Assembly (NCBI RefSeq): GCF_012271765.1 | Contig: NZ_VRKO01000010.1 | Coordinates: forward strand, 690,884 to 754,883 | Length of the DNA: 64,000 nt | Origin: Erwinia rhapontici | Lineage (GTDB): Bacteria; Pseudomonadota; Gammaproteobacteria; Enterobacterales; Enterobacteriaceae | Reading direction: 5' to 3' | In this document: one piece after another, positions 24,980 through 28,720 of the stretch | How positions within the stretch are numbered: the stretch's first letter is position 1 | Layout: the number at the start of each line of letters is the position of its first letter | The notes under the pieces: model-generated | Seen by the model: only the letters and a program-made list of their open reading frames with translations | The model's database searches: none | What the model was told of the DNA's origin: nothing | Made by a program: the position numbers and the translations under genes

Positions 24980-25149
24980 TTGCACGACGCTGGCGCATAC
25001 CTTTCGGTGCGCCAGTTATTTCCCATTCCACTCTCGCTGAAAAGCGCAGCCCGCCCGTTTCTGCCGCCGCGATCACAATGCTAACAATCAGTTATTACGT
25101 TGTTTACAACTGGCTGGTAAACCCCCACAACTGGTCTATCTTTTAAAGT

Positions 25150-25249
25150 GCAAGGCGAATCGCCTGCAATAATGCCAACTTTTAGCGCACGGCTCTGAAA
25201 AGAGCCCTTTCCCTGGACCAAAGACAGGAATCGTCTTTGGTCTTTTTTT
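25150..25249 (+). ncRNA. sdsR: SdsR (RyeB) small RNA
   Basis: The segment GCAAGGCGA... with the core ATGCCAACTTTTAGCGCACG matches E. coli SdsR, a sigma-S-dependent, Hfq-bound sRNA. Its 3' end is a terminator, GACCAAAGAC / GTCTTTGGTC followed by seven T. A TCTATCTT -10-like element ends about 6 bases upstream. It lies after yebY, its usual place. In E. coli an antisense RNA, RyeA/SraC, overlaps on the other strand; its ends cannot be set here. The mid stem (GGCTCTGAAAAGAGCC) differs in sequence from E. coli but pairs. Confidence 0.92.
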
Positions 25250-25278
25250 GGATAGTACGTTAAAACAATCACTTAGAT

Positions 25279-25890
25279 TTAAATCAATGAGTTACATCCC
25301 ACCCTGTTACACCCCATTACACCCTGTAGGAACCTCTGTAGACACTTAGTCGGAATGTTGTCTTTAAGTTTTTTCGACTTATCGTCAACCATGCCGAGCT
25401 TTTCCAGCACCCAGTCAATGCCGTTCTGCAACTCAGTCAGCGGTGAAAGTACGAACTTAATCCCGGCGGCCAGCAGCTCACCAAACTGCTTGCCCATATC
25501 ACCCGCCGCTTTCAGTTCATCCTGGGTTAACTTGACCGGTTCAAGCAGCCCTTTGAACTTGTCCCATACCCCGCCGAGCTTATCCCCCAGCCAGTCAAAG
25601 GCGGGCTTGAGCGGTGCAAATGCATCAGCGATTGGCCCCATTGCAGCGGTAAAGCCCGCGGCCATCCCTTTCAGAAATTCGCTGATAGGCTCCCAGTATT
25701 TCCTGATAAGCAACGCACCCGCGACGATGGCGGCGGCCACCAGAACAACCGGCAGGGAGATGGCACCGAGGGCGGCAACAATCATTTCCCCGGCCACGCT
25801 GAAAGCAACGCCCATTTTGCCGCCGATTGAGATGATCGTATTGATGCCCGAAATCACCGGCCACGACGCCAGACCAATTGAACCCAGCGC
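25279..25890 (-). pseudogene. Tape-measure protein (P2 gpT) fragment
   Basis: About 180 codons similar to the hydrophobic and C-terminal parts of P2-like tail tape-measure proteins, including VVLVAAAIVAGALLIRKYWE and FLKGMAAGF, then LSPLTELQNGIDWVLEKLG. Full-length P2 gpT is over 800 residues. The N-terminal side is cut at about 25890 where portal sequence begins on the other strand. At the other end the frame runs out of the homology into the repeat region. Not functional. Confidence 0.85.
25291..25326. repeat. Short TTACAYCC repeats near the prophage edge
   Basis: Three close copies: TTACATCCC, TTACACCCC and TTACACCCT, beginning at about 25292, 25307 and 25317. Their position between SdsR and the phage fragment suggests arm-type integrase sites of an attachment region, but that is an inference. 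Confidence 0.4.
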
Positions 25891-25894
25891 CCAC

Positions 25895-26353
25895 ACCCTC
25901 TACCGCCGCAAGTATTACCAGAACGGCGCGCACGCGGGTTATATCCTGTATATGACGGACGCCGCGCAGAGCAGCAGCGACATTGAGCAAATGCGAAAGG
26001 CAATGCGCGACACTAAAGGCGAGGGCAATTTCCGCAACCTTTTTATGTATGCGCCGAACGGAAAGCCGGATGGGATTAAGATCCTGCCCCTGAGCGAGGT
26101 CGCCCCCAAAGATGACTTTTTCAATATCAAAAAGGCCAGCCGTGACGACCTGCTTGCCGCGAACCGGGTGCCGCCTCAGATGATGGGCATTATCCCTGAC
26201 AATGCTGGCGGCTTTGGTGATGTGGTGAAAGCGGCACAGGTGTTTGTTAGGAACGAGCTGACGCCATTGCAAGAACGGATGAAGGAGATTAATTCATGGA
26301 TAGGGAATGAGATCGTATCATTCCGGCCATATATTCTGGAAATTAATAGTTAA
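25895..26353 (+). pseudogene. Portal protein (P2 gpQ) C-terminal fragment
   Basis: About 150 codons of a P2-type capsid portal: LYRRKYYQNGAHAGYILYMT, NLFMYAPNGKPDGIKI, PLSEVAPKDDFFNIKKASRD, NRVPPQMMGI and VFVRNELTPLQ. It ends naturally with FRPYILEINS. The N-terminal half is missing; it joins the tape-measure fragment at 25890-25895. No start codon of its own. Confidence 0.88.
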
Positions 26354-26367
26354 TAATATATGGCTCT

Positions 26368-27138
26368 TTATGAGCTATATCCTCTTTGCTTTCGTTTCTT
26401 TTTCCACTTGTAAATTTTTTTTGGAAAGTAGTATTTTAAGTTATAAAAAAATTCACCAAATTTATCGGATTGTGTTTGATTCAAAATTCTGTGCTCGCTT
26501 CTGATAAAAAGAAAAACATTAAGAAATGGATCATCAACCCGCTCCTGAAACTCTTCACAACTATATTCATTCACTCGCTTGAGAGACTCGTACTCAGCCT
26601 TAATATTATCAGGGTTCATGAAAGCAGCCTTCTCCCATTGAGTGCGAATGAAAGGAGAGAAGAAAGAAATATTTTCTTTTACATGCCCCATTACTCTATC
26701 AAAGCGCTCTAAAAAATCCTTTTTGTCTAAGTGCATAACTGGTGATTGATTCATATCCCACATTTCCACTTTGCTTCTGTTATGCACCCTATATTCATCT
26801 GCAACCTTTCTGTGAAATTCTATCAGTGACTTGCTACTTTCGAAATCAACATAATCGTATTTAGCTGGGCCGTAATGCTGTTCAAGCCAATGAAGTTTTT
26901 CATATTCGTTTACTGCACGTTCGAGTGTTTTATCCTCGGATACATATGGTGTGTTTGTTTTTAATTTATAATCGTAAAGAAGTAAATCGCACACATCAAA
27001 ATAGACCTTGTCGTAAACTCTTAACTTTTCATTTCTTCTTGTAATACTGGCTTGACGTAAGGTGTTGACAAACCCCAAACACGAGATAAAAAAACCCCCA
27101 ATAGATATATAAATTGATAAGTTGTTATCAGTTTCCAT
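26368..27138 (-). CDS. Unrecognised AT-rich membrane-anchored protein, prophage accessory gene
   Basis: 256 residues from ATG 27138, preceded by AGGGTGG; an upstream extension to 27219 is less likely. One hydrophobic helix near the N-terminus (SIYISIGGFFISCLGFV, about residues 7-23) is followed by a charged helical cytoplasmic part with no known catalytic motif, and a very basic C-terminus (KKIYKWKKKRKQRG). A+T content is far above the chromosomal genes. It is intact although flanked by decayed phage genes, and lies between the portal 3' end and cos, an accessory-cargo site in P2-like phages. Function unknown; a lysogenic conversion or phage-exclusion role is a guess. Confidence 0.7.
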   Translation of the reverse strand: METDNNLSIYISIGGFFISCLGFVNTLRQASITRRNEKLRVYDKVYFDVCDLLLYDYKLKTNTPYVSEDKTLERAVNEYEKLHWLEQHYGPAKYDYVDFESSKSLIEFHRKVADEYRVHNRSKVEMWDMNQSPVMHLDKKDFLERFDRVMGHVKENISFFSPFIRTQWEKAAFMNPDNIKAEYESLKRVNEYSCEEFQERVDDPFLNVFLFIRSEHRILNQTQSDKFGEFFYNLKYYFPKKIYKWKKKRKQRGYSS

Positions 27139-27323
27139 AATCCACCCTCTGACTAAATTCTCATGTGATTGATAATTTTTCACTTCAAAATTGCATCGCT
27201 CAAGAAACATGTCCAACACATTGATTTTAAGCCTGTAGGAACATTTTTAGAAGCGTATATACCATCCAATATGCTTCAGCGCTGTTGTATCGCTCGCATA
27301 CATGTTTGCACCCCTCGCGCGCA

Positions 27324-27342
27324 ATGCTATCCCCGCCACGCC
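27324..27342 (-). other. P2/186-type cos site
   Basis: Read on the minus strand the 19 bases are GGCGTGGCGGGGATAGCAT, one base different from the 186 cohesive end as I recall it (GGCGTGGCGGGGAAAGCAT) and close to P2. Its distance from the portal 3' end agrees with P2-like genomes once the accessory gene is allowed for. Confidence 0.8.
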
Positions 27343-27727
27343 TGCCCGCTTTAGTGGCCTCATTTCATGCAACTGCACGATCCTCACGAAGCTGCGCCGC
27401 AACTGGTGTGGTGAGGAGTGTGGGGCAGGGGATCCTACATGCGGATCCATGCACTCTACACATGCATAGCTACAGGCCACCGATTCGATGGCCTGTAAGG
27501 CAGTTTAATGAATGACGCGGAAGAGGTGGAAACCGTGTACACCTTCAGTAACGATCTGGCGATGCGCCGTGATGTAGATATTAGCCTCAGCAGCAGTAAT
27601 CGCATAGCCGGCACCAATAACCCGTTGAACAACGTCAGCCGTGGAAATTTCGAGAAAATTTTCCTGATACTGCTGCTGTGGGATCTCTGTTTCTTACTGA
27701 AGCTTAAGGTTTTATTGTTCCATATCG
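27343..27727. other. Gene-free stretch right of cos
   Basis: No gene recognised. It contains an inverted repeat TACAGGCCA / TGGCCTGTA (27471-27497, 9-bp arms) and open but unconvincing frames on both strands (plus strand 27508-27759; minus strand ending near 27508). It is probably eroded phage sequence. Confidence 0.5.
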
Positions 27728-28252
27728 CTATTTCTGTAAAGGCGAGTAGCCATCTATAGTGAATTTGAACTGCTGATCACCAGCCTGGAAAAAAGGAGCT
27801 TCAATAAAGAGTGTCTTATGTGATTGTAACTTCTTGATAAATTCAGATGAGTTCTTGAAGAAAATCACATTAGAGCTGCCATCTGCTGCGCCGCCCATTG
27901 AAAATTTTTGAACTTTTTCATTATCAAACTTCACCGAAACATGGCATTCACTAAAAGAACTGCACAAAAACTGTCCTTTACTAATTACAAGCATCGCTTC
28001 CGTGGGGACCAGGTCTTCTGGTTTTTGACCTTCTTTGAGTTCAATTTTTTTGGAGCGAAGAACAATACTCATACTTGAACCACCGTTATAGGGAAATTCA
28101 AAATTTACTTTGTTCTCCGAGTCATTCTGATTATATTTCTGTGCGGTGCCACGCATTTCATCGTTTTGGTAAGCTGTGTGCCAGATGTTGGCATAACAGC
28201 TTGAAATCGTTAAGACGAAAGCGGAAAGGGTAGTTACGGCTCTGGTTATCAC
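27728..28252 (-). CDS. Secreted protein of unknown function
   Basis: 174 residues with a signal peptide (MITRAVTTLSAFVLTISSCYA), then a beta-rich domain. Blocks such as DEMRGTAQKYNQNDS, FEFPYNGGSSM and SKGQFLCSSFSECHVSVKFD resemble a family of small exported proteins often found in enterobacterial prophages and islands. Two cysteines could form a disulphide. The start is GTG in a 4-base GTGA overlap with the upstream gene, so the pair is translationally coupled. AT-rich. Function unknown. Confidence 0.72.
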   Translation of the reverse strand: MITRAVTTLSAFVLTISSCYANIWHTAYQNDEMRGTAQKYNQNDSENKVNFEFPYNGGSSMSIVLRSKKIELKEGQKPEDLVPTEAMLVISKGQFLCSSFSECHVSVKFDNEKVQKFSMGGAADGSSNVIFFKNSSEFIKKLQSHKTLFIEAPFFQAGDQQFKFTIDGYSPLQK

Positions 28253-28581
28253 TTCACAATCTCCTGCTTAATGACCACTTCACGGGGTTTCAGTTGCTGA
28301 ATAGCGCGACAAATGCAGTATGGGATCACCGCCCATGCAAGGCCCATCGCTGCACCGGCAGCTTGTTGGGGGGCGCTGTCAGCGGCCCAAACCATCACGA
28401 CACCTTGAATAAAACCAATAACTGAACAGATAATGGACAACTTCCACATTTTTTTTCGTCCCTTTCCTATAGCCATTAACAATTTTATATATATTAACAT
28501 CATTAATGTGGGTGGCAATAAAAATGCGAGCGGACTCACATGCTTAATAATGAAATCAACCCCCCATGTTAAAGCCCCCAC
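28249..28581 (-). CDS. Small inner-membrane protein
   Basis: Up to 110 residues with three or more hydrophobic helices (SPLAFLLPPTLMMLIYIKLL, LSIICSVIGFIQGVVMVW, AAGAAMGLAWAVIPYCI) and a charged tail. The GTG at 28581 sits right on a GGAGG, so translation may begin later, for example at the GTG at 28539. It overlaps the secreted-protein gene by GTGA. No family recognised; the two may work together at the envelope. Confidence 0.6.
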   Translation of the reverse strand: MGALTWGVDFIIKHVSPLAFLLPPTLMMLIYIKLLMAIGKGRKKMWKLSIICSVIGFIQGVVMVWAADSAPQQAAGAAMGLAWAVIPYCICRAIQQLKPREVVIKQEIVK

Positions 28582-28720
28582 CTCCGTTTGCTTTTCCCCC
28601 TAACATAACGCAGTATCTTCAACGGCTTGCCGCTACATGGGCAACTTGCACTGCGGCGTTACGCTGCCACGGGTTCCGATGCCCGATATCAATAAATCAC
28701 ATGTACAAAAGGGTATTGCG

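Follow-up and report, generated by a model that had tools for sequence, protein, structure and literature searches.

The window analysed here, a stretch of 64,000 nucleotides, contains a short P2-like prophage remnant that begins directly after the end of the small RNA gene sdsR/ryeB, at 25249 (Table 1). In the passages cited, the attachment site of Salmonella phage PhiW104 falls inside the final 23 bp of ryeB (PMC7380047); in several genomes of the same genus, the match to the left flank of the remnant also stops at 25249–25251. Inside the remnant, cos, an accessory gene and the end of the portal gene gpQ follow one another in that order, with the accessory gene convergent with gpQ and the sole gene in the interval. 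The accessory gene is flanked by the gpQ end and cos; of the gpA side of cos the remnant shows nothing. A sequence-only reading had sited the gene in the portal–cos interval of a P2 remnant, and the portal PHROG match and the cos 19-mer on either side bear this out. Both landmarks resemble those of a viral contig, L037: the gpQ remnant is 86% identical to its portal over 151 residues, ungapped, and an 82-column block including cos is 89% identical. When the wider region was searched as DNA, 210 phage records and 2,641 of 5,426 E. coli genomes matched, with the listed matches falling in its gpQ and cos parts; the DNA of the accessory gene itself matches none of those genomes. Two other AT-rich ORFs, both of unknown function, lie on the minus strand of the remnant, one (27728–28252) with distant matches (25–29%) in seven phage records and in phrog_1848, and one (28249–28581) matching phrog_12304.

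Table 1. Features of the P2-like remnant and its insertion site, in window coordinates
Feature	Position	Strand	Basis
Accessory gene, 256 aa, one predicted N-terminal membrane helix	26368..27138	-	ORF, translation, relatives, alignment A5
P2-type portal (gpQ) 3' end, C-terminal 154 residues, 5' part lost	25889..26353	+	PHROG 68, E 1.7e-73
Tail tape-measure gene fragment	25279..25896	-	PHROG matches, e.g. phrog_28 at 1e-18
cos site 19-mer	27324..27342	-	16/19 bases as in P2 cosR; identical in L016, L019 and L037
Whole inserted remnant, ~3.3 kb	25252..28587		Missing in G020, which has 44 bp there instead
sRNA gene sdsR/ryeB	25153..25249	+	Rfam match (RF00111 and RF00101 cover sdsR/ryeB and ryeA/sraC)
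ryeA/sraC	25111-25253	opposite to sdsR/ryeB	Rfam (RF00111, RF00101)

The accessory gene is real, and the length of its ORF is not a product of chance. Its frame runs on the minus strand from an ATG at 27138 to a stop codon ending at 26368; a longer ORF is possible from a GTG at 27219, and the alignment with the nearest relative starts at the ATG. At the gene's own base frequencies, an open frame of 256 codons has a probability of 6e-10 per given frame, and the five other frames across 26340–27240 hold 16–34 stops apiece. GC content is 34.5%, compared with 47–63% in 500-base segments outside about 25–29 kb. The protein has a single hydrophobic stretch (residues 9–27), predicted to form an N-terminal membrane helix, with a net charge of -2 before it (residues 1–8), +4 after it (28–47) and +10 over the basic tail formed by the last 25 residues. 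The coordinates, the 256 residues, the AT-richness, the one membrane helix and the basic tail of the sequence-only reading thus all stand. A comparable single helix is found in all five relatives described below, and the residues that follow it are net positive in all six members. By the positive-inside rule, we place the long C-terminal part in the cytoplasm.

The predicted structure is all helical, from poor models (pLDDT 38.7 from the single sequence; pLDDT 55.3 and pTM 0.44 from six sequences). A Foldseek search of the predicted fold against the PDB and viral models returned no match at E≤0.001. The best VIA-align hit, a Wadjet JetABC chain at Z 6.1, may reflect no more than a common arrangement. 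By sequence, the window protein has no match among solved structures, and profile A2 gave two matches there, at E 0.84 and 1.7. Across the structure searches, made with these poor models, and the domain scans, no fold or catalytic motif was recognised in the family.

That the protein is undamaged while its phage neighbours are truncated had been taken as a sign of selection for keeping it. This argument is weak, as the gpQ remnant is equally free of damage and aligns across 151–154 residues without a gap, stop or frameshift. Decay here is by deletion, so an intact frame in such a remnant is unremarkable. The gene could be a passenger of a decaying remnant in the window's host, unexpressed and without selection, a possibility that is compatible with a defence role for the family and to which we give less than even odds. 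All 256 codons are open, which speaks for maintenance, but the state of gpQ means that intactness needs no selection; the remnant measures about 3.3 kb, a crude consensus scan for sigma-70-like promoters, covering the gene's strand between cos and the gene, found none, and a six-row profile run over 37 genomes of the genus and 178 of the family recovered the window copy only, that is, one carrier among the 37. In a comparison with L037, codon positions 1, 2 and 3 differ at 34%, 26% and 62%, and dN is 0.37 (NG86), while synonymous sites have changed too much for an estimate. We see in this pattern a constraint on the protein between elements, which bears on the gene's history and is no proof of selection in the remnant.

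The suggestion that the protein belongs to an undescribed family has held up, since it matches no Pfam, NCBIfam or PHROG family. For the window protein, PADLOC gave one weak match, to pAgo (E 0.0029, 14 bits, residues 72–139), which we took as chance. Relatives are rare. Scanning 37 genomes of the genus, 392 of the family and 369 of the class with the single protein recovered the window copy only, and the same scan of genome-contig and viral-contig collections found none, as did a search of the viral contigs with alignment A1; tblastn found no match for the window protein or the L034 protein among 50,697 phage records and 72,556 plasmid records, and none for the L037 and L041 proteins among the phage records. 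An order-level scan of 394 genomes yielded one relative, G614 (E 1e-29), and a two-row alignment search then reached Candidatus Scalindua (43% identity), Vreelandella neptunia (41%) and Alteromonas profundi (31%). The Alteromonas profundi and G614 matches were counted as one member because the same genes occur in both contigs; this relative lacks a usual start codon at the conserved N-terminus. Two viral contigs, L037 (57% identical) and L041 (41%), supplied the others. With a four-row profile, 249 genomes of the phylum gave nothing beyond the window copy, and 147 genomes of G614's family gave G614 and one weak match, in G1172 (E 0.0042, 17.1 bits), which was left uncounted. L055:112-837, an ORF from a same-genus locus, was compared as a further candidate and rejected (hhalign probability 2.7%, E 0.017). 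The family as assembled here has six members; the five others share 29–57% identity with the window protein, and alignment A5 shows 36 invariant positions. In its tree, the window protein and that of L037 group at 100/100 and L041 is unplaced, a pattern compatible with one or with two entries into P2-like phages. Literature searches over a part of the literature found no such family, and an unnamed family is not searchable by name.

Both viral relatives occupy the same part of a P2-like genome as the window copy. The 4,624-bp L037 contig reads gpA end, an ORF with a SocA/Panacea domain, a 189-aa ORF, cos, the relative and the gpQ end, and L041 reads gpA, a 114-aa ORF, the relative, a 228-aa ORF, gpQ and gpP, with cos not located; the names gpA and gpP are our reading of these ORFs, not profile matches. 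L037 thus repeats the window's own order of cos, gene and gpQ. Like both viral relatives, the window copy is P2-like cargo near gpQ, and it belongs to the cos-proximal gpA–gpQ hotspot of P2-like phages. Other cargo in these contigs includes the SocA/Panacea-domain and 189-aa ORFs of L037 (1772–2851) and the 228-aa ORF of L041 (11515–12201), which has hydrophobic stretches; the 189-aa and 228-aa ORFs have no Pfam or PADLOC match.

Homologues near gpQ were thus found in L037 and L041, as a survey proposed in the sequence-only reading would look for, but in none of 18 loci of the same genus. These loci (L043–L060; 291–3,611 bases as cut) are gpQ matches with a cos match nearby, from a search that scored at most eight candidates per genome; a few shorter gpQ matches without cos were excluded. 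Length (90 aa or more) and overlap were the sole criteria for picking ORFs from them, which gave 44 in 17 of the 18 intervals, and the best score of any of these against the family was E 0.034 (4.9 bits). The gpQ side of cos thus carries ORFs in 17 of 18 same-genus loci, compared with no annotated gene there in P2. The 44 ORFs match 179 PADLOC families at E≤1e-5, a count of families and not of ORFs, as one ATPase may match many; 104 control ORFs from 20 regions (stretches at fixed steps in four genomes) match 26. Among the matches listed are 25 of the 179 hotspot families and 25 of the 26 control families. Pfam domains in the hotspot ORFs include RloB, putAbiC, ThsB_TIR, AbiEii-type AAA, C5 methylase and HNH. 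The commonest, DUF1493, occurs in 6 of the 44 and was counted as non-defence cargo. The same-genus interval is rich in defence-type genes and fits the published E. coli P2-like hotspot, for which the passages cited give 1,650 arrangements across 18,150 loci and report that old-tin and three of eight further systems cloned from the locus were active (PMC9122126); in the cited part of a selection screen, four of 21 defence systems sat at the P2 hotspot position (PMC9519451).

Hotspot cargo need not be defensive. The gene could serve lysogenic conversion or phage maintenance, for example a change of the host surface or prophage upkeep, and precedent comes from the E. coli hotspot, where, in the passages cited, about a fourth of the phages carry partition genes and other non-defence cargo is also present (PMC9122126). 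The window protein has no recognised defence domain, as this explanation would have it, but phage upkeep leaves unexplained why all three chromosomal relatives have a restriction or abortive-infection-type gene within 2 kb, and we regard it as unlikely.

Judged by their ORF lists, these chromosomal relatives lie outside P2-like phages. The one in Scalindua adjoins the gene of a full-length type IIG/ISP restriction–modification protein (1206 bits). Upstream of the Vreelandella relative, a full-length PD-Lambda-4_A protein (1003 bits) ends 1.5 kb away; the relative itself adjoins an HNH ORF whose type IV match is weak. The Alteromonas relative is preceded directly by an FtsZ-like gene and, before that, at 1.8 kb, by an AbiZ-like (DUF6161) gene (E 5.5e-24). 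Because only six members were found, the neighbourhood argument rests on these three loci, and its weight is carried by the long, full-length matches: a PADLOC match alone is weak evidence, since the 104 control ORFs match 26 families. The PADLOC scan covered 16 chromosomal neighbour ORFs, a chosen subset of those around the relatives, and matched five of six in a first batch and none of ten in a second; four neighbour ORFs from the phage contigs gave no match. The AbiZ-like and FtsZ-like GTPase genes of Alteromonas profundi (L033:7851-10852) are possibly a tubulin-like defence operon; a literature search for AbiZ with FtsZ-like proteins or DUF6161 found no papers.

The window protein might instead be one half of a multi-gene system, for example a membrane effector that has lost its sensor or antitoxin partner here. 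The two Alteromonas genes that precede the relative speak for this, as does the 228-aa ORF, with its hydrophobic stretches, that separates the relative from gpQ in L041. No neighbour is common to the ORF lists of the six loci, however, and in both the window and L037 the gene stands alone between cos and gpQ, which makes this reading quite improbable; the lack of a shared partner gene fits a one-gene system.

From location, neighbours, spread and architecture, we conclude that the accessory gene, whose family is undescribed, probably encodes a single-gene, membrane-tethered candidate protein for phage exclusion or abortive infection (probability about 0.6 for defence). As cargo of the gpA–cos–gpQ hotspot of a P2-like prophage, it would protect the lysogen from other phages. 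The anchor, with its N terminus out and C terminus in, would hold the helical domain at the cytoplasmic face of the inner membrane, where that domain may sense a cue of infection; the protein could then block infection at the membrane, either as an abortive-infection effector that damages it or as a stop to DNA entry. If the role is defence, a mechanism acting at the membrane has, in our judgment, roughly even chances. We would give similarly balanced odds to the wider proposal of a new, rare family of one-gene, membrane-tethered putative anti-phage proteins, spread from Planctomycetota to Gammaproteobacteria and acquired by P2-like phages into their cos-proximal hotspot. The gpA–cos–gpQ interval of these phages is well established as a place where new anti-phage systems are found. 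The present family, for which Pfam, NCBIfam and PHROG have no model, occupies it in three elements and lies close to defence genes in three further loci, all chromosomal. It offers a concrete candidate for phage defence that is cheap to test, with the 36 invariant positions as a start for mutants.

Among known systems, HEPN RNases carry an R-x4-6-H motif in a HEPN fold. The family has an invariant R148/H152 pair, which is R-x3-H, the one match was PF18867 in one of five relatives (E 0.054), and the fold model is too poor to judge by; a HEPN identity would be possible but has no support here. The putAbiC proteins (PF16872, putative phage abortive infection protein) also have membrane helices at the N terminus, followed by a cytoplasmic domain of similar size, and one member, P0002, lies within a same-genus gpQ–cos interval. 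Motifs matched by eye had offered a lead to kinship, which failed when six sequences were compared with twelve (hhalign probability 1.5%, E 0.035), and hmmscan found PF16872 in none of the six family members. The old and tin genes of P2 (NC_001895) had been invoked as a parallel from next to cos. Like the window gene, they are accessory genes beside cos in the gpA–gpQ interval, and Tin, at 253 aa, is close in length to the 256 aa here; unlike it, they are found towards gpA from cos and the window gene towards gpQ, where the cos–gpQ gap of P2 has no annotated gene. Kinship with Tin (hhalign probability 0.3%, E 0.22; profile search 2.8 bits) and with Old (profile search -0.9 bits) found no support; the parallel is one of place beside cos. 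The window protein, which has no Pfam match, differs in this from the single-protein DUF4238 system known at the P2 hotspot of E. coli. In kind they are alike, each a single protein encoded at this locus with a molecular function yet to be described, and the DUF4238 system, in the passages cited, protects against T7 (PMC9122126).
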